A stretch of 64,000 nt of DNA from Magnetospirillum sp. ME-1 (GTDB taxonomy: Bacteria > Pseudomonadota > Alphaproteobacteria > Rhodospirillales > Magnetospirillaceae), in NCBI RefSeq assembly GCF_002105535.1, contig NZ_CP015848.1, forward strand, positions 1,946,856 through 2,010,855. Direction: 5' to 3'. Shown one piece after another: positions 2,504-59,508 of the stretch. The first letter of the stretch is position 1. Every line of letters begins with the position of its first letter. A program made the position numbers and the translations under genes. The notes beneath the pieces were generated by a model. The model searched no databases and was not told where the DNA came from. It was given only the letters and a program-made list of their open reading frames with translations.

Positions 2504-3819
2504 CCTTGTCCTATGACGATCTTCGGGCGCTGGACGCCCGCCATGTCTGGCATCCCTTCACCCAGGCCGGCACCGCCAAGCCGGCCATCCTGGCCCTGGG
2601 CGCCAAGGGTGCCTCCATCTTCGCCGCCGACGGGCGGGAATATCTCGACATGGTGTCGTCGTGGTGGGTCAACCTGCACGGCCACGCCAACCCGGCCATC
2701 GCCCAGGCCGTCGCCGACCAGGCCGGACGGCTGGAGCAGGTGATCTTCGCCGACTTCACCCACGAGCCCGCCGCCCGCCTCGCCGCCCGGGTCTGCCAGC
2801 GCCTGCCCGGCGATCTCAACCGGGTGTTCTATTCCGACGACGGTTCCACCGCCGTGGAAGTGGCGCTGAAGCTGGCGCATCAGTACTGGCGCAACAAGGG
2901 CCAGCACCGTTCCATCTACATCGCCTTCGAGGGCGGCTACCACGGAGACACCGCCGGCGCCATGTCGGCCGGGCATTCCTCGGGCTATTTCAGCGCCTGG
3001 AAGGAGATGCTGTTCCCGGTCCAGACCGCCCCCTTCCCCGCCACCTGGGACGGCGACGAGGAGGTGGAGGCCAAGGAGGCGGCGGCGCTGGACGCGCTGG
3101 ACATGATGTTCTCCACCAATCCGGACCGCGTCTCCGCCGTGATCGTCGAGCCGCTGATCCAAGGCGCCAGCGGCATGCGCATGTGCCGCCCCGAGTTCCT
3201 GGTCAAGCTGGAGGCCAAGGTGCGCGAGCACGGCTCGCTCCTGATCCTCGACGAGGTGATGACCGGCTTCGGACGTACCGGCGACATCTTCGCCTGCGTG
3301 AAATCGGGCATCACCCCCGACCTGGTCTGCCTGTCCAAGGGACTGACCGGCGGCTTCCTGGCCCTGTCCATGACCGTGGCCCGCGACGGCATCTTCGAGG
3401 CCTTCCTGGGCCAGGACCTGTCGAAGGCCTTCCTGCACGGCCATTCCTACACCGCCAACCCCATCGGCTGCGCCGCCGGCCTGGCCTCGCTCGACCTGCT
3501 GGAAGGCCCCGCTTGCCAGCAGCGCATCAAGGAGATCGAGGCCACCCACCGGGAGCGCCTGGACGGCCTGAAAGCCCTTGCCAACGTCGCCCATACAAGG
3601 CTGACCGGCACGGTGGCGGCGCTGGACGTCATCGGCGGCGGCAAGGGGTATCAGGCCGGCATCGGACCGAAGATGAAGGCCGCCTTCCTGGAGCGCGGCC
3701 TGCTGCTGCGCCCCTTGGGCAACGTCCTTTACCTGCTGCCGCCCTACTGCATCACCGATGCCGAATTGCATCGCGCCTGGGACGGGGTGGAGGACGTTCT
3801 GCGGATTCTGGTGAAATGA
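2500..3819 (+). CDS. bioA: adenosylmethionine-8-amino-7-oxononanoate aminotransferase (BioA)
   Basis: Class III PLP aminotransferase of 439 residues that converts 8-amino-7-oxononanoate to 7,8-diaminononanoate with S-adenosylmethionine as amino donor. It shows the BioA N-terminus with HVWHPFTQ, SSWWVNLHGHANP, the FYSDDGSTAVEVALK region, LILDEVMTGFGRTG and the PLP lysine 280 in LSKGLTGG. Gene length is normal. No bioB is seen in the visible part of the operon; it may lie to the left of the window. The ATGA overlap at 3816 joins it to the following export genes, so they may be co-transcribed with biotin synthesis. Confidence 0.95.
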   Translation: MTLSYDDLRALDARHVWHPFTQAGTAKPAILALGAKGASIFAADGREYLDMVSSWWVNLHGHANPAIAQAVADQAGRLEQVIFADFTHEPAARLAARVCQRLPGDLNRVFYSDDGSTAVEVALKLAHQYWRNKGQHRSIYIAFEGGYHGDTAGAMSAGHSSGYFSAWKEMLFPVQTAPFPATWDGDEEVEAKEAAALDALDMMFSTNPDRVSAVIVEPLIQGASGMRMCRPEFLVKLEAKVREHGSLLILDEVMTGFGRTGDIFACVKSGITPDLVCLSKGLTGGFLALSMTVARDGIFEAFLGQDLSKAFLHGHSYTANPIGCAAGLASLDLLEGPACQQRIKEIEATHRERLDGLKALANVAHTRLTGTVAALDVIGGGKGYQAGIGPKMKAAFLERGLLLRPLGNVLYLLPPYCITDAELHRAWDGVEDVLRILVK

Positions 3820-4823
3820 CCAGACGCCTGCTCCGCCAAATCCCGCTGCTGCTGATCCTTCTGGGCATCGCCGCCGCCGGTGTCTGGTGGTGGTGGCGAA
3901 TGTCGGCGCCCGAGGTGGCTCTGGCATTGCCCAGGCGCGGCCCGGCGGTGGAGGCCATCTACGCCACCGGCACGGTGGAGGCCGAGAAATGGGCGCGCAT
4001 CGCCCCCGTCTCGCCCGGGCGCATCGCCGAGATTCTGGCCTTGGAGGGCGACAGCGTGAAGGAGGGCCAGCCCCTGGCCCGCCTGGACGACCGCGAGGCC
4101 CGGGCCAGGATCGCCGAACTGGAGGCCAAGGCCGCCTATTGGCGGGAAGAGATGAACCGCTCGGCGGCGCTGACCGAACGGGGCTACCGCTCCACCGAAG
4201 CGACCCAGAAGGCGCGCAGCGAATTCAACCAGATCACCGCCGCCATCAACGCCGCGCGCCAGAAGCGCTCGGACCTGCTGGTCACCTCGCCCATGGACGG
4301 CGTGGTCCTGAAGCGCGACGGCGAAGTGGGCGAACTGGCCGAGGTCAAGGATGCCCTGTTCTGGGTCGGCGCGCCCCACCCCCTTCGCATCACCGCCGAG
4401 GTGGACGAGGAGGACATCGCCCGGGTCAGGATCGGCCAGAAGGTGCTGATCAAGGCCGACGCCTTCGCCGAGCGGGTGCTGGAAGCCCGGGTCGACCGCA
4501 TCACGCCCAAGGGCGATCCGGTCAACAAGACCTTCCGCGTCCGGGTAATGCTGCCCGACGACACGCCCCTGCTGGTGGGCATGACCACCGAGATCAACAT
4601 CATCACCGCCGAGCACACCGACGCCCTGCTGATCCCGGTCACCGCGCTGCGGGACGGCACCGCGCTGATCGCGGAGGACGGCCGCGTCGCCGCCCTTGCC
4701 CTTTCCATCGGTATCCGCGGCCGCACCATGGTCGAGGTGACCGGCGGCCTGGCACCCGACCGGCCGGTGATCGCCTCGCCCCCCGCCGGCTTAAAGCCCG
4801 GCGACCGCGTCCGGGTGAAATAG
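3816..4823 (+). CDS. periplasmic membrane-fusion protein of an ABC exporter (HlyD/MacA family)
   Basis: A 335-residue adaptor with an N-terminal membrane anchor (about residues 8-28, rich in L, I and W), a biotinyl-lipoyl-like half (APVSPGRIAEI...EGQPLARLDDRE), a short alpha-hairpin at about residues 92-145, the second lipoyl half (VTSPMDGVVLKRDGEVGE) and beta-barrel/C-terminal domains. Such proteins link an inner-membrane transporter to an outer-membrane channel. It is the first gene of a trio with a permease and an ATPase. Start: the ATG at 3816 overlaps the bioA stop. The substrate is unknown, and no outer-membrane channel gene is nearby. Confidence 0.85.
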   Translation: MTRRLLRQIPLLLILLGIAAAGVWWWWRMSAPEVALALPRRGPAVEAIYATGTVEAEKWARIAPVSPGRIAEILALEGDSVKEGQPLARLDDREARARIAELEAKAAYWREEMNRSAALTERGYRSTEATQKARSEFNQITAAINAARQKRSDLLVTSPMDGVVLKRDGEVGELAEVKDALFWVGAPHPLRITAEVDEEDIARVRIGQKVLIKADAFAERVLEARVDRITPKGDPVNKTFRVRVMLPDDTPLLVGMTTEINIITAEHTDALLIPVTALRDGTALIAEDGRVAALALSIGIRGRTMVEVTGGLAPDRPVIASPPAGLKPGDRVRVK

Positions 4824-4835
4824 GGAGGGCCGGAG

Positions 4836-6083
4836 GTGCTGCCGCTCGGCCTCGCCATCGCGCTCCAGCACCTGCGCCACCGGCGGCGCCAGACCCTGGT
4901 GTCGCTGCTGGGCGTGTCGCTGGGCGTCGCCTTCTTCATCGGCATCTCGGCCATGATGCAGGGCTTCCAGCGCGACTTCATCGCGCGGATCATCGACGTC
5001 CAGCCCCACATCATCGTCAAGGACGAGGTGCGCGCCGCGCCCCGCCAGGCGGTGGAGCGGGCCTATCCCGACGGCGCCGTCTCCTTGCGCGGACTCAAAC
5101 CCCGCGAAGAGGTGCGCGGCATAAGGGGCGCGCGCAACATGCTGGCCACCCTCGAGGAAATGCCGGGCGTCCACGTGGCCCCGGCGCTGTCCGGCAATCT
5201 GCTGCTGCGCTTCGGCGGCAAGGACGTCTCGGTCAACGTCACCGGCATCCAGCCCGAACGCGAACGCCACGTCACCCATCTGGAAAAGGACCTGCTGTCG
5301 GGCAGCCTCGACGCCCTTTACACCACCTCCAACGGCATCATCCTGGGCGAGGGCGTGGCGGCCAAGGCCGGCATCCGCAAGGACGACCTGATCTCGGCGG
5401 TATCGCCCCAGGGCGTGATGCTGAAGATGAAGGTCGTCGGAATCTTCCGCAGCAACATCACCCTGATGGACAATTTCGAGGTCTATACCCTGCTGAAGAA
5501 GGCGCAGATCCTCCAGAACCGTCCCAACGTCATCAACCGCCTCAACCTCAGGCTCGACGACGTGGAGCAGGCCGGGCCGCTGGCCGCCGAGATCGAACGC
5601 CGCTTCGGCTACCGCTCGGAACCCTGGATGGAGCAGTCGCGCAACGTGCTGGGCATCTTCGTCATCCAAAACGCCATCATGTATTCCACGGTCAGCGCCA
5701 TCCTGATCGTCGCCTGCTTCGGCATCTTCAACGTCATCTCCACCGTGGTGTTCGAGAAGACCAGGGACATCGGCATCCTGAAATCCATGGGATTTCGGGA
5801 TCGAGACATCCGCCGCATCTTCGTCATGGAGGGCCTGATCGTCGGCCTGATCGGCACGGTGATCGGCTGGCTGATGGGCTGGGGCCTGATCGAGTTCATG
5901 GCCTCGCTCGACTTCCAGATGGAGGGCTTCATCAAGGCCCAGGGCTTCGTGCTCTACCGCACGCCGCGCCACTACGCCATCAGCGCCGCCATGGCCATCG
6001 CCTCGGCCACCCTGGCCGCCTGGGTGCCGGCAAGGCGCGCCTCGCGCCTCAATCCGGTGGATATCGTCAGAGGAGCCGGCTGA
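4836..6083 (+). CDS. ABC transporter permease, MacB/LolC-FtsX type
   Basis: A 415-residue permease with the FtsX-family layout: one transmembrane helix near residues 20-45, a large periplasmic domain of about 220 residues, then three helices at the C-terminus with the typical VFEKTRDIGILKSMGFRDRDI coupling segment (in two pieces) and the closing ARRASRLNPVDIVRG. It sits 12 bp after the membrane-fusion gene and shares its last base with the start of the ATPase gene. MacB/LolCE-type transporters work as mechanotransmitters that extract or push substrates in the periplasm; the substrate here cannot be read from sequence. Confidence 0.85.
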   Translation: MLPLGLAIALQHLRHRRRQTLVSLLGVSLGVAFFIGISAMMQGFQRDFIARIIDVQPHIIVKDEVRAAPRQAVERAYPDGAVSLRGLKPREEVRGIRGARNMLATLEEMPGVHVAPALSGNLLLRFGGKDVSVNVTGIQPERERHVTHLEKDLLSGSLDALYTTSNGIILGEGVAAKAGIRKDDLISAVSPQGVMLKMKVVGIFRSNITLMDNFEVYTLLKKAQILQNRPNVINRLNLRLDDVEQAGPLAAEIERRFGYRSEPWMEQSRNVLGIFVIQNAIMYSTVSAILIVACFGIFNVISTVVFEKTRDIGILKSMGFRDRDIRRIFVMEGLIVGLIGTVIGWLMGWGLIEFMASLDFQMEGFIKAQGFVLYRTPRHYAISAAMAIASATLAAWVPARRASRLNPVDIVRGAG

Positions 6084-8528: not shown

Positions 8529-10586
8529 CTATCTCCGGACCGTGGACAGGAAGGAATCCACCTCGTGGTTGAGCGCGGTGGCGGGCCGCGCCAGATCCTT
8601 GGCCGCCCAGATCACCCGGATGGCCGCCGCGCAGTAGCGAACCGCCGCCTGGGTCACCGAGGCGACGCCGTCGCCCACCACGGCGGCGTCCGTGTCCATC
8701 GCCTCGACGCATCGCTCGATCCGGCCGGTGATCTCGCGCTGGCGCACCACCGCGCCCGCCACTTCGCCGGCGATGCGGTCCATGTGCAGGATGGCCTCGC
8801 CGATGCCGTCGATGGCCATGGCGGTGTCAGCGGTCGCCCCCTGGATCTCCGCCACCTGGGCGGCGATCTCGCGGGTGGAGCGGGCGGTCTGGTGGGCCAG
8901 ATGCTTGACCTCGCCCGCCACCACGGCGAAGCCCTTGCCGGCCTCGCCCGCCCGCTGGGCCTCGATGGTGGCGTTGAGCGCCAGCATGTTGGTGCGCTGG
9001 GCGATCTCCTCGATCATGGTCACCACCCGGCCGATGCGGCCGGCCACCTCGGACAGGCTCTGGATGCGGCCGGTGGTGGCGGCAAGCCGGGTCACCGCAT
9101 CCCGGGCGATGGCGGCGGCCCCTTCGGCCCCGGAGGAGATTTCCCGCACCGAGCCCCCCAGTTCGGTGGTGGCCTCGGCCACCGAACGCACCGTCGCCCG
9201 GCACTGGCGGGCGGCCTCGGCCACCGCCAGGGCGCTGCTCTTGCCGCTGTCGGCCCCCGACGTCATGCGCTCGGCGGTGTCGCGGATCCCCACCGCGTTG
9301 GAGGCGACCAGATCGGCGGTGCTCTTCACCGCCTGTTCGAAGCCTTCGGCCAGGGACAGCAGGTGGGCGCGGTTGGCGGCCTCGGCCCTGGCGCGGATGG
9401 AGTGCTGCTCGTCTTGCAGCCGCACCATGGCGATGGCGTTCTCCTTGAACACGCCGACGGCGCGGGCCATGTCGCCGATTTCGTCGCGGCGCCCGGTGCC
9501 GGGCACGGCGATGGCGTGGTCGCCATGGGATAGGCGCTCCATGGCGTCCTGGATGAGACGCACCGGCCGGGTGATGGAATGGGCGATGACCAGGCAGGCG
9601 GCCAGGAAGGAGAGGCCCGCCAGCATGCCCACCAGGGCGACCTGACGGCCGGTGGCGCGGCGCTCGGCCTCCTGGGCGGCGATGGCCTGGGCCATGCCTT
9701 CGCGGGCGAAGGCCAGCACCCGCTGCATCACCGGCTGCAGGGCCTGGAACCCGGCGCGGACCTCGGCCAGCTCGCCCTTGACCGACTGCGCCCCGGCGGC
9801 GAAGGCCTGGAAATCCTGGCCGTAGACGATGCTGAGGCGCCGCAGATCGTCGCGGGTGGAATTGGGCAGGGTCGAGGAATCCAGCGCCATGTCCAACTGG
9901 CCGAGAGCGGCCTGATGCCGCCCCAGGGCGCCCGCCTGCCCGTCCAGCATGAAATCGCGCTCGGCCAGGCGCAGCTTGGTCACCGCCAGCGACAAGGGCG
10001 CCGAGGCCGGCCACATGGCCAGTTCCTGCTCGACGGCGCGGGCCGATTCGGTCAGACGGGCCCGCAACCCCGACTGCGCCGTCAGACCCAGGCGGGTCAT
10101 CTCGGCCTCGAGACGGGCGAAAGAGAGGGCGATGGTCTCGACCCCCACCTGGGCCTCACCCACCGCCTCGGCCATGGGGCCGCCGGCCGACAGTTCGGCC
10201 ACCGCGTCCAGCCGCTCGCGGATCTGTCCCAGATCGTGGTGAAGGGCCTGGGCGGTAGCGGCCTCGTGATCGCGGGCGAACACCTCCATCAGGTTCTGGG
10301 CCACCGCCGAGCGGGCCCGCACGTCGGCGGCCAGATCGTTGAGCCGGCGATAGGAATCCTGGGCCTGGAGCATGGCTTCGATGCGCTGCCCGGCCGCCAT
10401 GTAGACACTGCCGAACACCACGGCGGCGGCCAGGGCCAGCACCACCAGAAGGATGAAGCGGCCCCGGATGGGAAGGTCGGCCAGAAACGGCACCTCGCCG
10501 GCCCGAAGGCCATCGCGCGCCCAGGCCAGGGAAAAGGGGCGAAGGCCGAAGGCATCGGCGGTAACGGCATCCTGCTTCACGATCAT
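8529..10586 (-). CDS. methyl-accepting chemotaxis protein with a large periplasmic sensor
   Basis: A 685-residue transmembrane chemoreceptor. It has a cytoplasmic N-tail of about 40 residues, TM1 at about 42-65, an all-helical periplasmic region at about 66-312, TM2 at about 314-337, HAMP at about 338-392 and a signalling domain to the end. The hairpin tip is [22 protein letters not shown] at about residues 527-548 (given as the conserved core), where CheA and CheW bind. The sensor, about 245 residues with an RLAERDFML motif, resembles the helical bimodular type in size, but that is inference. There is no CheB/CheR-docking pentapeptide at the C-terminus. The ligand is unknown. Confidence 0.9.
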   Translation of the reverse strand: MIVKQDAVTADAFGLRPFSLAWARDGLRAGEVPFLADLPIRGRFILLVVLALAAAVVFGSVYMAAGQRIEAMLQAQDSYRRLNDLAADVRARSAVAQNLMEVFARDHEAATAQALHHDLGQIRERLDAVAELSAGGPMAEAVGEAQVGVETIALSFARLEAEMTRLGLTAQSGLRARLTESARAVEQELAMWPASAPLSLAVTKLRLAERDFMLDGQAGALGRHQAALGQLDMALDSSTLPNSTRDDLRRLSIVYGQDFQAFAAGAQSVKGELAEVRAGFQALQPVMQRVLAFAREGMAQAIAAQEAERRATGRQVALVGMLAGLSFLAACLVIAHSITRPVRLIQDAMERLSHGDHAIAVPGTGRRDEIGDMARAVGVFKENAIAMVRLQDEQHSIRARAEAANRAHLLSLAEGFEQAVKSTADLVASNAVGIRDTAERMTSGADSGKSSALAVAEAARQCRATVRSVAEATTELGGSVREISSGAEGAAAIARDAVTRLAATTGRIQSLSEVAGRIGRVVTMIEEIAQRTNMLALNATIEAQRAGEAGKGFAVVAGEVKHLAHQTARSTREIAAQVAEIQGATADTAMAIDGIGEAILHMDRIAGEVAGAVVRQREITGRIERCVEAMDTDAAVVGDGVASVTQAAVRYCAAAIRVIWAAKDLARPATALNHEVDSFLSTVRR

Positions 10587-56090: not shown

Positions 56091-56447
56091 CTACTGGCAG
56101 TCGGAAACCGCCACCTTACAGCCCTTGCCGCAGGCTTCCAGGGCGTTGGCCTTGGCCTCGCCCTCGGTGCTGCCCCAGCCCACGCCGGTGTAGTCCCGGG
56201 AGGTGGCGTAGGCGCCGCAGGTGTCGTAGCGCACCGCCACCTTGCAGCTGCTGTTGCCGGCCTTCTTGCACTCACGCACCGCGTCGATGCCTGCCTCCTC
56301 GCGGGTGGAGCCGCTGCCGACACCGAAACCCACCTCGCTGGCCTTGGTCGCGTCGGCGTCATCGACGGCGATGGCGCCCGCCGCCCAGGCGGAACCGGTC
56401 AGAGCAATTCCCGCCGCCATCACCGCGGCCATGATCATCTTCTTCAT
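56091..56447 (-). CDS. exported DUF4189-like cysteine-rich protein
   Basis: A 118-residue protein with a signal peptide (MKKMIMAAVMAAGIALTGSAWA; cleavage after SAWA). The mature part has two similar halves, each with a G-x-G-x-G-S-T strand, an EA-x(4-6)-A-x-x-C helix and a CKVAV strand ending in Cys; six cysteines in total could form disulfides. This layout matches DUF4189 proteins, which are secreted or periplasmic and of unknown function. AGGAGGGG lies before the ATG at 56447; the ATG seven codons upstream is rejected because the ribosome site would fall inside it. It is downstream of cbpB on the same strand, 150 bp away. Confidence 0.75.
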   Translation of the reverse strand: MKKMIMAAVMAAGIALTGSAWAAGAIAVDDADATKASEVGFGVGSGSTREEAGIDAVRECKKAGNSSCKVAVRYDTCGAYATSRDYTGVGWGSTEGEAKANALEACGKGCKVAVSDCQ

Positions 56448-56597
56448 CGTCAACCCCTCCTGAGGCATTTATTCAGCCTCTGGAAGCCTACCCCCCCAGG
56501 CAGATTCCAACCATTCCAAAATTGTTGCGGTTTCTTACATCCGCCGGATGCCCGGGCCGGGACGGCAGGATTCCCGCCGCCCCGGTCGGCGAGGAAA

Positions 56598-57977
56598 CTA
56601 GCAGCCGAAGGCGAAGGCGGTCTCGGTGCCGTCGTCCCAGCCGTCCCACATGTAATCCTCGGCGATGCCGTCGGCGATCAGGCGGAAGGCGTACCGGGCC
56701 TGATCCAGATAGAAGCCGCAATAGGCCCCGATCCTGTCCATGCCGCCATTGGCCTCATGCGCCTCGGCCGGACAGGGCGAGCCGCAGAAATGCCGTACCG
56801 GACAGGTGGAGCAGGCCTTGATGTCTTCCACCTTGCGCCCGGTCACCAGCTTGAAGGCCGGGCTGTCCAGCACGTCCTCTATCCGGTCGGTGAACAGGTT
56901 GCCGCCGGCGAATGACGGCAGGCCGATGAATTCCGAGCACGGGAACAGCGAACCGTCGGGGGCCAGCGCGAAGAACGACCGCCCGCCGCCGCAGGGCGAG
57001 ATGTCGCACATCAGCCGCCTTGCCGTCGGCGCCAGGATGGAGATCAGGATGTTGACGAAATTGGCCACCACCAGCTTGCGGCCCGTCTGGCGGTAAAGCT
57101 GGTGGGTACGGTCCAAGGCCGCCAGATAGGCCTTGGACACCGCTTCGTCCTCGGCCCACGCCCCTTGCCCGCCCGGCTGGGTGCAGCGGACCACGTTCAG
57201 CATGCAGGCGGGCACCTCCTCGGCATGAAGGAACTCCACCATCTCGGTCAGCTGGCCCAGATTCTCGCGGTTCATGGTGCAGATGACGTTGAAGCCGGCA
57301 TAGCCCCGAAGGCGGCGGATGGCGTCCACCGTCGAGGCGAACACCCCGTCGCCGGTCCAGCGCTTGCGCGAGCGGTCGGCCACCTCGGGCTTGGGCGCGT
57401 CCAGCGACAGGCCGATGCCGCAGCCCCGAGACGTCAGGAACTCCACCGCCTTGTCGTCCAGCAGGGTGGCGTTGGTCTGCACCCCGAAGCGGAAACGGTC
57501 CGAATAGCGGTCGATGGCCTCGAACATGGCGTCACGGTTGAGCAGCGGCTCGGCGCCATGGAAGATGATCTGCGGCTTCCTGCCTTCCGGCACGGTGCGG
57601 GCGAAGTACTCGTCGAGGCGCGCCATGGCCTCCATCAGCTTCTCGCGGCTCATATGCTCGCCGGTACGCCGCATTTTCTGCGGGATATAGCAGTAGGTGC
57701 AATCCAGATTGCAGCGTTCGGTAGGGTTGAAATAGACCGCCGAGGGCTTGAGATGGAAGCGCAGCATGTCCATCTCGCGGGCGAAATCGTCGCGCTTGGC
57801 GCGCCAGTCGCGCTCCAAGGCCCCGTCGTCGAGGACCGCGTCCATCTCGTCCTTGCGCACCAGCGCCCAGAAGGCGTTGTCGGCGTCGATCAGGGCGGTG
57901 TAATCGGCGTGGCCGATCTCGAAATTCTGGAGGCCGTCGGGAAGACGGCCCCCACGGAGGGGGGCCGCGACGTTCAC
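56598..57977 (-). CDS. radical SAM/SPASM peptide-modifying enzyme (CbpB-like)
   Basis: A 459-residue radical SAM enzyme. About 85 N-terminal residues precede the core, where the SAM-cluster motif ERCNLDCTYCY gives Cys89, Cys93 and Cys96. The C-terminal SPASM-like region has Cys324, 329, 347, 389, 392, 398, 402 and 420, enough for two auxiliary 4Fe-4S clusters as in peptide maturases. GAEPLL and the PDGSLFPCSEF and CPVRHFCGSPC segments are typical of this group. It starts with GTG at 57977, which overlaps the stop of a 43-codon gene by 4 bp (GTGA). A cobalamin riboswitch precedes both. I recall a family named CbpB with a small partner CbpA in this context; the name is from memory, while the peptide-maturase role follows from domain and context. 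Confidence 0.82.
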   Translation of the reverse strand: MNVAAPLRGGRLPDGLQNFEIGHADYTALIDADNAFWALVRKDEMDAVLDDGALERDWRAKRDDFAREMDMLRFHLKPSAVYFNPTERCNLDCTYCYIPQKMRRTGEHMSREKLMEAMARLDEYFARTVPEGRKPQIIFHGAEPLLNRDAMFEAIDRYSDRFRFGVQTNATLLDDKAVEFLTSRGCGIGLSLDAPKPEVADRSRKRWTGDGVFASTVDAIRRLRGYAGFNVICTMNRENLGQLTEMVEFLHAEEVPACMLNVVRCTQPGGQGAWAEDEAVSKAYLAALDRTHQLYRQTGRKLVVANFVNILISILAPTARRLMCDISPCGGGRSFFALAPDGSLFPCSEFIGLPSFAGGNLFTDRIEDVLDSPAFKLVTGRKVEDIKACSTCPVRHFCGSPCPAEAHEANGGMDRIGAYCGFYLDQARYAFRLIADGIAEDYMWDGWDDGTETAFAFGC

Positions 57978-58105
57978 CGCTTCACCTGCCCATGCTTAAC
58001 ATGAGTGTCCATCAGGACGTAATGGGACAGGCCGGTGCCCTCGGCGTCGCAGGTCTTGCGAACGGCGATGACGGGGGGGCGCGGTTTGGTCTGAGTTTTG
58101 GTCAT
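57974..58105 (-). CDS. short precursor-peptide gene (CbpA-like) upstream of the radical SAM enzyme
   Basis: A 43-codon gene with ATG at 58105, AAGGA 9 bp upstream and a stop overlapping the GTG of the radical SAM gene. The peptide starts MTKTQTKPRP, has a single cysteine (Cys19) in RKTCDAEGTG, then SHYVLMDTHVKHGQ and ends VKR. It contains no signal peptide or membrane segment. It is basic at both ends, with a central acidic/glycine stretch. Size, position and coupling to a SPASM enzyme are what is expected of a RiPP precursor; the modified residue is unknown. It is too short for normal gene-calling limits, so it is easily missed. Confidence 0.8.
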   Translation of the reverse strand: MTKTQTKPRPPVIAVRKTCDAEGTGLSHYVLMDTHVKHGQVKR

Positions 58106-58207
58106 GGCGTTAATCCTTGCGTCAGCCAAAGGGGCTTTCCGGCCGGGGCGCGGACGCGCACCAGCCGAAACCCTTTGCCATCGGATTTCGCCCCTCGTTC
58201 AACCTAT

Positions 58208-58361
58208 GTCCGTGCAGGTCTTCTGGCTCTCGGATCAGCCACGAGACCACGCCTTCCCGGCTGTTCGCCAGTGGCTGGGGCCTGAGCGCCCCTGTGGTCC
58301 GTGTCCCCGATTACAGCGGCGGGACCGCCACGGACTTTCACCGTGTTCCGGGATGCAGGAC
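58208..58361 (-). ncRNA. cobalamin (adenosylcobalamin-type) riboswitch
   Basis: On the minus strand P1 pairs GTCCTGCA (58354-58361) with TGCACGGAC (58208-58216). Between them are GGTGAAAGTCCGTGGCGG, CGCCGCTGTAATCGGGGA, AGCCACTGGCGAACA, GGGAAGGCG and the B12-box GAGAGCCAGAAGACCTGCA, all in the canonical order of the class. It sits 102 bp upstream of the 43-codon gene. I see no U-tract terminator in that gap, so control is probably at translation or by Rho. A riboswitch of this class usually lowers expression when B12 is abundant. Confidence 0.93.
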
Positions 58362-58368
58362 GAACATG

Positions 58369-58397
58369 GCTCTACAATACCGCAATGGAGACGTCAA
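58369..58397 (-). promoter_or_regulatory. promoter of the riboswitch-peptide-radical SAM unit
   Basis: TTGACG (58392-58397 complement) and TAGAGC (58369-58374 complement) with a 17-bp spacer on the minus strand. A start site about 7 bp after the -10 would fall at about 58362, which is the 5' end of the aptamer P1 stem. The agreement supports both calls. Confidence 0.65.
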
Positions 58398-58467
58398 GTT
58401 CCGGCGGTTGTCGCGCCGAATGGGGCCTGCTATCGTCCGCTCCCCAATTGCCAAGGGAGCAGGGATC

Positions 58468-59508
58468 ATGAAGGACGTTTCCGTCGCCATCTTGGGAGCC
58501 AGCGGCTATACCGGCGCCGAGCTTGTGCGCCTGCTGGCGCTGCATCCGGCTTTCAAGATCAAGGTGATGACCGGCGACCGCAAGGCGGGCCAGTCCATGG
58601 ACTCCGTGTTCCCCCATCTGGGCGGGCTGAAGCTTCCCGATCTGGTCGCCATCGATCAGGTGGATTTCAAGACCGTCGACGCGGTGTTCTGCTGCCTGCC
58701 CCACGGCACCACCCAGGAGGTGATCGCCGCCCTGCCCGCTTCGGTCAAGGTGGTGGACCTGTCGGCCGATTTCCGGCTGTTCAATGTGGACACCTACGCC
58801 CAGTGGTACGGCCACGAGCACCGGGCGCCCGACTTGCAGAAGCAGGCGGTCTACGGCCTGACCGAGCTGGCCCGCGGCGCGGTGGCCAAGGCCCGGCTGG
58901 TGGCCAATCCCGGCTGCTATCCCACCTCGGTGCAGCTGCCGCTGATCCCGCTGCTGAAAGCCGGGCTGATCGAGGCCAGCGACATCGTCATCGACGCCAA
59001 GTCGGGTGTGTCGGGCGCCGGGCGGGCCGCCAAGGAGGCCAACCTCTATACCGAGGTGACCGAGGGCATGCACGCCTATGGCGTCGCCAGCCACCGGCAT
59101 TCCCCCGAGATCGAGCAGGGCCTGTCGGAAGCCGCCGGCGCTCCGGTGCTGGTGACCTTCACCCCCCACCTGATCCCCATGAGCCGGGGCATGCTGTCGA
59201 CCATCTACGTCAAGACCAGGGGGGGCGCCAAGGCCGCCGACCTGCTTGCCCGGCTGGCCGCCACCTACAAGGACGAGCCCTTCGTCCGCGTGTGTCCCGA
59301 GGGCGTGGTGCCCCACACCCGGCATGTGCGCGGCTCCAACCACTGCCTGATGAGCGTGTTCGACGACCGGGTGCCCGGGCGGATCATCATCACCTCGGTG
59401 ATCGACAATCTGGTCAAGGGCGCCTCGGGCCAGGCGCTGCAGAACATGAACCTGATGTTCGGCCTGCCCGAGACCCTGGGTCTCGAACAGCAACCCCTGT
59501 TCCCGTGA
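58468..59508 (+). CDS. argC: N-acetyl-gamma-glutamyl-phosphate reductase
   Basis: A 346-residue NADPH-dependent reductase of arginine synthesis. Nucleotide-binding VAILGASGYTGAELVRLL lies at the N-terminus, the catalytic cysteine 150 is in NPGCYPTS, and the HRHSPEIEQ and GSNHCLMSVF motifs follow. The frame is open well upstream, but the ATG at 58468 with GGGAGCAGGG before it starts the Rossmann fold. It is transcribed divergently from the riboswitch unit, so both promoters share about 100 bp. The gamma-carbonic-anhydrase-like gene follows 9 bp later. Confidence 0.96.
   Translation: MKDVSVAILGASGYTGAELVRLLALHPAFKIKVMTGDRKAGQSMDSVFPHLGGLKLPDLVAIDQVDFKTVDAVFCCLPHGTTQEVIAALPASVKVVDLSADFRLFNVDTYAQWYGHEHRAPDLQKQAVYGLTELARGAVAKARLVANPGCYPTSVQLPLIPLLKAGLIEASDIVIDAKSGVSGAGRAAKEANLYTEVTEGMHAYGVASHRHSPEIEQGLSEAAGAPVLVTFTPHLIPMSRGMLSTIYVKTRGGAKAADLLARLAATYKDEPFVRVCPEGVVPHTRHVRGSNHCLMSVFDDRVPGRIIITSVIDNLVKGASGQALQNMNLMFGLPETLGLEQQPLFP

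Follow-up and report, generated by a model that had tools for sequence, protein, structure and literature searches.

A 64,000-nucleotide stretch of contig NZ_CP015848.1 of Magnetospirillum sp. ME-1 (hereafter the window, whose own numbering we use) carries on its minus strand, in 5' to 3' order, a cobalamin aptamer, a leader of ~110 bases, a 43-codon open reading frame (ORF) and a 459-codon ORF. The short ORF (57974-58105), encoding a 43-residue precursor peptide with the core VIAVRKTCDAEGTGLSHYVLMD, matches the NCBIfam family TIGR04164 (54 bits, cut-off 35) and lies directly upstream of the long one (56598-57977), which matches the radical SAM/SPASM enzyme family TIGR04163 over the complete model (767 bits, cut-off 375; model positions 1-428 of 428). 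We refer to the two as cbpA and cbpB, or jointly as cbpAB; the GTG start of cbpB overlaps the stop codon of cbpA by 4 bases. An earlier note, made from the letters alone, had read the locus as a short precursor gene and a radical SAM/SPASM enzyme behind an adenosylcobalamin-type aptamer at 58208-58361, and both halves of that reading held: the proteins exceed the curated cut-offs, and a covariance-model search matched the Rfam Cobalamin family (RF00174) at 58349-58218 with 75.5 bits against a gathering score of 31.5 (E value 8.8e-17, model positions 47-167 of 189). P1 arms recognized by eye and by folding, 58361-58354 with 58216-58208, complete the span.

We read the element as a cobalamin riboswitch, for which the class predicts cobamide binding and lowered expression. 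Downstream of it lies a P13-like stem-loop (58166-58190, minus strand; CGAAATCC-loop-GGGTTTCG), of which none of the 8 pairs was broken in 21 aligned leaders of an alphaproteobacterial clade (the window and 20 of the 80 homologous loci described below). The stem-loop carries UCCGAU, an anti-Shine-Dalgarno-like motif that, as judged by eye, could pair with the Shine-Dalgarno region AUCGGAG present in many of the leaders. An outer helix of five predicted pairs, GAGGG (58196-58192) with CCCTT (58133-58129), encloses it between the aptamer and the start codon; three of the five pairs change on both sides with pairing kept in some of the 21 leaders, and for each of the five, 1 to 5 of the leaders show a break or a gap. 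The stem-loop is probably part of the expression platform, in which it would take the switching role of P13. As a consensus scan of 56400-58520 found no terminator, translational control is the likelier mode. The same scan gave no sigma-70-type site, and the earlier claim of a promoter with its -10 element seven bases before the aptamer was not confirmed: what lies there, identified by eye at 58370-58397 of the minus strand, is a weak, putative promoter-like sequence with a fair -35 hexamer (TTGACG, 58397-58392), a 16-nucleotide spacer and TGTAGA, which matches only three of six bases.

For comparison, we collected 80 homologous loci (numbered with the prefix L), the best 80 of 423 relatives in one scan of genome contigs. 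By title they span 13 phyla, with 42 loci in Pseudomonadota and 4 without a phylum, and the hosts include named isolates of Magnetospirillum, Rhodoblastus and Aromatoleum; the single row titled "Acidobacteria" (L029) groups with Telmatospirillum-like rows, so its contig may be misplaced. Two of the loci, L040 and L048, are cbpAB copies in a single genome, Azoarcus sp. Aa7. A CbpA-like peptide was found upstream of cbpB in all 80 loci, ending at most 375 bases before it or overlapping it, so that the window and each of the 80 show the precursor peptide and modifying enzyme expected of a ribosomally synthesized and post-translationally modified peptide. The C-terminal core has the consensus V-I-A-x-R-K-x-C-x-A-x-G-T-G-L-S-H-Y-[IV]-L-M-D. 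Both glycines and the leucine, serine and histidine of G-x-G-L-S-H are present in 80 of 80 loci, the arginine and the cysteine in 79 each (in L025 an inserted residue displaces the cysteine), and the tyrosine in 75, with phenylalanine in the other 5. Codon heterozygosity over the core was 0.194, 0.098 and 0.474 at the first, second and third positions; third positions thus vary far more than second ones, which indicates that CbpA is under selection and, together with the peptide's presence in all 80 loci, that the gene pair is more than a chance association. An invariant core across phyla fits one conserved product. The L079 precursor has its core in two tandem copies; the same locus has a second cobalamin riboswitch after cbpB, ahead of cobB (these features of L079 being noted at 2300-2479 and 3963-4139).

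We aligned CbpB from the window with 47 of the 80 loci, leaving out L065 and L078. Identity to the window's protein was 59-94%, and all 48 sequences share the motif C89-x3-C93-x2-C96 (CxxxCxxC) and the SPASM cysteines C389-x2-C392-x5-C398-x3-C402-x17-C420. Pfam placed Radical_SAM (PF04055) and SPASM (PF13186) over the cut-off and Fer4_12 below it; no cobalamin-binding domain appeared up to an E value of 1, as the earlier note had held, and CbpB does not qualify as a cobalamin-dependent radical SAM enzyme. The structure predicted from the 48-sequence alignment (predicted local distance difference test score 87.8) had its nearest Protein Data Bank (PDB) folds in 5why/5wgg, 9gm3 and 4k36-4k39; it was closest to 5why/5wgg, ChlB and the anaerobic sulfatase-maturating enzymes, and a profile search of PDB sequences recovered the same group (5wgg/5why, 4k36-4k39). 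Judged by its sequence, CbpB is a radical SAM/SPASM enzyme of the peptide-modifying kind, with CbpA as its probable substrate.

The riboswitch accompanies the pair in most of this sample. With an nhmmer profile built from 27 aptamers of these same loci, we found a cobalamin riboswitch directly before cbpA in 69 of the 80 loci. Rfam itself, applied to 41 of the 80, gave a directly upstream riboswitch in 27 of 32 loci and then in 3 of 9, six of these nine being loci where the profile had found none. In three further loci (L051, L060 and L075) a riboswitch lies farther upstream on the same strand and heads a gene run that includes cbpAB, bringing the total to 72 of 80; cobalamin control of the peptide-maturation pair, proposed for the window alone, is in this sense conserved. 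Among the remaining eight, L044, L062, L074 (where the upstream sequence ends after 236 bases) and L082 are situated within or next to cobamide clusters. In L049, where no riboswitch was found, the next long ORF, ~0.9 kb upstream (3287-5524), encodes a RACo/AcsV-like corrinoid activator that contains Fer2 and CBS domains.

The surroundings of cbpAB were searched with tblastn, using as queries the cobamide proteins of L060, L058, L082 and L085. The queries were identified by NCBIfam, except that the CbiM-like protein and CbiX of L060 fall below the NCBIfam cut-offs (CbiX exceeds that of Pfam) and one CbiG was assigned by position alone; matches of at least 80 bits within ~8 kb were counted. Whether homologues adjoin corrinoid genes was a check set out in the earlier note, and the answer was yes for a part of them: of the 80 loci (1.05 Mb), 18 have cobamide-synthesis genes near cbpAB, whereas none of 40 control stretches (0.52 Mb) has any (Fisher P value 6e-4, kinship ignored). 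The controls were convenience-picked from genomes of the same set, 28 of them being at least 10 kb long; L088 gave one sub-threshold match of 74 bits. We did not count L034 (a HisC-like match of 28% identity) and L066 (BtuF-like only) as linked. On a quick CbpB tree, restricted to 65 of 81 rows by dropping unlinked loci with short flanks, the linkage requires 11 changes and has therefore arisen or been lost repeatedly.

The linked loci cover several parts of the pathway. In L060 the order is cobA-cobB-cbiM-like-cbiF-cbpAB-cbiX-cbiC-cbiD-cbiET-cbiL-(cbiG)-cbiH, an arrangement that, as (cobA)-cobB through cbiH, is shared with L075, and L051 reads cbiM-cbiQ-cbiO-cbpAB-cbiX-cbiC-cbiD, so that in three loci cbpAB stands directly before the cobalt chelatase gene cbiX. 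In L055 and L072 cbpAB is followed by cobT. In four loci (L058, L061, L070 and L071) the pair and cobC-cobU-cobT-cobS-cobDQ are oriented divergently, and both sides have a riboswitch, detected by Rfam in L058, L070 and L071 and by the profile in all four including L061; in L058 the divergent run continues to cbiB. L044 ends with a gene for a CobD-like aminotransferase, cbiB and cbpAB, and cbiB is also a neighbour in L054. The genes cobA and/or cobB adjoin the pair in L053, L067, L073, L079 and L082, the last of which also has btuF- and btuB-like genes nearby. Placement in a cobamide cluster was more frequent in loci without a riboswitch of their own (6 of 9) than in loci with one (11 of 69; P value 0.0026).

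Other neighbours were more generic. In 27 of the 80 loci we annotated 58 hand-picked proteins; those of the other 53 loci were assigned by clustering only. Besides CbiX, the further recurrent clusters that we identified were histidine kinases, GGDEF/EAL proteins, chemoreceptors, AMP-binding enzymes, ferredoxin-type reductases, MMPL proteins, UvrA and lactamase-fold proteins; in one check of recurrent clusters, 4 of 9 proteins had no Pfam match. No protease was seen beside cbpAB among the identified neighbours, most loci being clustered rather than annotated, and no widely recurring exporter among the identified recurrent clusters. Exporter-like clusters comprised an MMPL-type membrane protein (5 loci, scanned in L011) and assorted ABC ATPases, those of L051 and L074 being for cobalt import. 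In L032 a gene for a reductase with FAD-, NAD- and 2Fe-2S-binding domains by Pfam (9411-10514) adjoins cbpB on the opposite strand; the clustering recovered this type only in Aromatoleum/Azoarcus kin, L034 and L040 included, and farther off in L033. Such a reductase might supply electrons for reducing cobalt.

The genomes behind 50 of the 80 loci, picked for breadth and including many metagenome bins, were scanned for marker genes. CbiD was found in 34, CbiC/CobH in 41 and CobS in 48 of them, and the window's genome has CbiC/CobH. That genome contains three cobalamin riboswitches, before cbpAB, cbiM and an OprB-family porin gene, and the L055 genome a single match with coordinates that fit the one before cbpAB. 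Of the three in the window's genome, the one in L085 (3041303-3041529 of the contig) precedes cbiM, of a cobalt energy-coupling factor transporter; the one in L086 precedes, near 193745-193991 of the contig, the OprB-family porin gene (PF04966, 268.6 bits). The latter is an uncommon target and might mean that corrinoid or cobalt passes through an OprB porin. CbiM was uninformative as a marker of cobalt need, being over the cut-off in 1 of 13 genomes, sub-threshold only in 11 and without a match in 1.

From the riboswitch, the gene pair, the conserved core and the linkage to cobamide genes in other genomes, all of which are direct observations, we infer the modification, the cellular location of the product and the pathway step as follows. 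The two genes would form an operon behind the riboswitch. When cobamide is plentiful, the riboswitch is predicted from its class to bind it and expression to drop, most likely at translation; when cobamide is scarce, both cbpA and cbpB would be made. CbpB would then modify the C-terminal core VIAxRKxCxAxGTGLSHYILMD of CbpA, probably by a crosslink or an oxidation within the Cys...Gly-Leu-Ser-His-Tyr stretch, and the product would perform one conserved job in the cobamide pathway. A nearly invariant core, a distribution that is wide yet patchy, the predicted dependence of expression on cobamide and the recurrent location among cobamide genes together argue for a fixed role in cobamide supply, and the lack of a protease and of a widely recurring exporter among the identified neighbours for a location inside the cell. 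Since the neighbouring genes serve steps as different as cobalt uptake and chelation, adenosylation, amidation, nucleotide-loop assembly and corrinoid activation, we favour the handling of cobalt or corrinoid over one dedicated catalytic step. Our first choice is a small carrier or redox partner, which may bring cobalt to a corrinoid intermediate, or hold and reduce such an intermediate. That a modified CbpA peptide, made at low B12, serves cobamide supply inside the cell is a proposition we consider about evenly poised between right and wrong. The wider one, that a radical SAM-modified ribosomal peptide with a near-invariant core is an unrecognized, shortage-induced part of the cobamide pathway in ~13 phyla, acting as a cobalt or corrinoid carrier or redox cofactor, we advance more tentatively, as plausible but short of probable.

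Several observations weigh against a role in cobamide supply. No recognized cobamide-synthesis gene was within reach in 62 of the 80 loci, many on short contigs, and the window itself has none at the same tblastn threshold; three of the eight loci without a riboswitch, L046 (truncated where its contig ends), L078 and L080, have no recognized connection with B12. In a tree-aware test the association between riboswitch loss and cobamide linkage was not significant (median P value 0.25). Of the 50 genomes, 9 lack both CbiC and CbiD; a scan of 13 genomes found cobyric acid synthase over the cut-off in six of these nine but not in the other three (L026, L055 and L084), which are either incomplete bins or salvagers without cobalt insertion. 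CobN, a subunit of the late cobalt chelatase, was over the cut-off in 13 of the 50, exactly the 13 alphaproteobacteria, with weaker family matches in 5 other genomes. CbpB is also rare, occurring in 1 of 241 genomes of one class draw, the window's own, and the peptide is therefore not needed for B12 synthesis in general.

The candidate roles differ in how they fare against these data. If the modified CbpA bound Co(II) and handed it to the early chelatase CbiX/CbiK, much as CobW does for the late one, this would fit the gene orders of L051, with cbpAB between cbiM-cbiQ-cbiO and cbiX, and of L060 and L075, with cbpAB just before cbiX; the riboswitch that precedes cbiM in the window's genome and the 37 non-alphaproteobacterial genomes without CobN over the cut-off agree with this. 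Most class II chelatases lack metal specificity and CobW is the donor of the late enzyme, according to PMC7689651, which would leave room for an early-pathway cobalt donor. Yet CobN, which receives its cobalt from CobW, is present in all 13 scanned alphaproteobacteria, among them close kin of the window, and a dedicated donor to the early chelatase is therefore not the whole story; three CbpB genomes lack CbiC, CbiD and CobQ alike, CbiM did not discriminate, and the core offers a single conserved Cys and a single conserved His. We regard such a cobalt metallochaperone as unlikely, though with a real chance of being right, and the same CobN distribution weakens any exclusive tie to early cobalt insertion. 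An exclusive tie to corrin-ring synthesis is weakened likewise, by the nine genomes without CbiC and CbiD, although six of these keep cobyric acid synthase. Genomes without ring synthesis would also suit a carrier of corrinoid, or a partner in Co(II)/Co(I) redox chemistry, at adenosylation, amidation, nucleotide-loop assembly, salvage or reactivation, for which the conserved His might provide an axial ligand. The neighbours cobA/cobB, cbiB, cobT, cobC-cobU-cobT-cobS, the btuF- and btuB-like genes and the RACo/AcsV-like activator point the same way, but they are diverse and single out no one step, and the tyrosine is replaced by phenylalanine in 5 of 80 loci; we give this role a rather small chance.

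Riboswitch control resembles that of uptake genes, and the riboswitch of L060 is followed by a gene for a TonB-type receptor, while L082 has a B12-receptor-like gene, as might be expected of a secreted peptide that scavenges cobalt or corrinoid in the manner of a metallophore. The identified neighbour clusters contain neither a protease nor a widely recurring export gene, however, and a core that is invariant across phyla would be unlike diversified secreted products, which makes a scavenger improbable. The logic of the riboswitch alone would further allow a cofactor or signal standing in for some B12-dependent function during B12 shortage, and the earlier note had named a B12-sparing, cofactor-like molecule among its examples. 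We rejected it as the leading explanation and consider it very improbable: the hosts are probable B12 makers by their CbiC/CobH and CobS counts, the pair lies inside B12-synthesis gene runs, the linked genes that were identified are cobamide genes, and no B12-independent isozyme was recognized among the 58 annotated neighbour proteins.

Two further features were noted in passing. About 150 bases after cbpB, on the same strand of the window, lies a gene for a DUF4189 protein (PF13827; 56091-56447) with a signal-peptide-like start, and L019 contains a fluoride riboswitch (RF01734, 54 bits) at 9038-9098.

The pathway to B12 is among the best-studied cofactor pathways, and no ribosomal peptide is known to take part in it. 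Should the CbpA product carry cobalt or a corrinoid, or feed electrons to one, that pathway would gain a component of a new type and this peptide family its first function. Such a role would also be relevant to the ways in which bacteria provide cobalt or low-potential electrons for B12. With the riboswitch, the gene runs and hosts that are named isolates, the function of CbpAB is open to direct tests.

By its sequence the locus belongs to a family that, unknown to the earlier note, NCBIfam has named, as "modified peptide precursor CbpA" (TIGR04164) and "peptide-modifying radical SAM enzyme CbpB" (TIGR04163), from which we found no difference. The short names, cobo_pep and rSAM_cobopep, fit a cobalamin link and were presumably based on the riboswitch by authors who had noticed that link. 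A literature search, with subscription papers mostly outside its reach, found no functional study of the pair among the papers listed, judged by their titles and opening abstract lines; the present analysis adds the measured riboswitch linkage, the placement in runs of cobamide genes in several phyla and the conservation of the core. The nearest structures by sequence and fold, 5wgg/5why, which we take to be CteB, and the anaerobic sulfatase-maturating enzymes (4k36-4k39), share ~20% identity with CbpB and differ from it in substrate and chemistry. The next best NCBIfam models were the dynobactin maturase DynA and the ranthipeptide maturase PapB, at 133.1 and 122.1 bits; CbpB is far below their cut-offs of 450 and 340, and their precursors are not known to resemble CbpA. 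The pyrroloquinoline quinone (PQQ) and mycofactocin systems work alike in that a short ribosomal precursor with a fixed core and product is paired with a radical SAM/SPASM enzyme and has a patchy spread. CbpB nevertheless scored 58.2 bits with the mycofactocin maturase model, below its cut-off of 265, and, unlike those systems, cbpAB is predicted to be B12-regulated and has no further maturation genes recognized at the locus. In cobalt supply, a role analogous to that of CobW (PMC7689651) is possible, CobW being a G3E GTPase and CbpA a 43-residue peptide.

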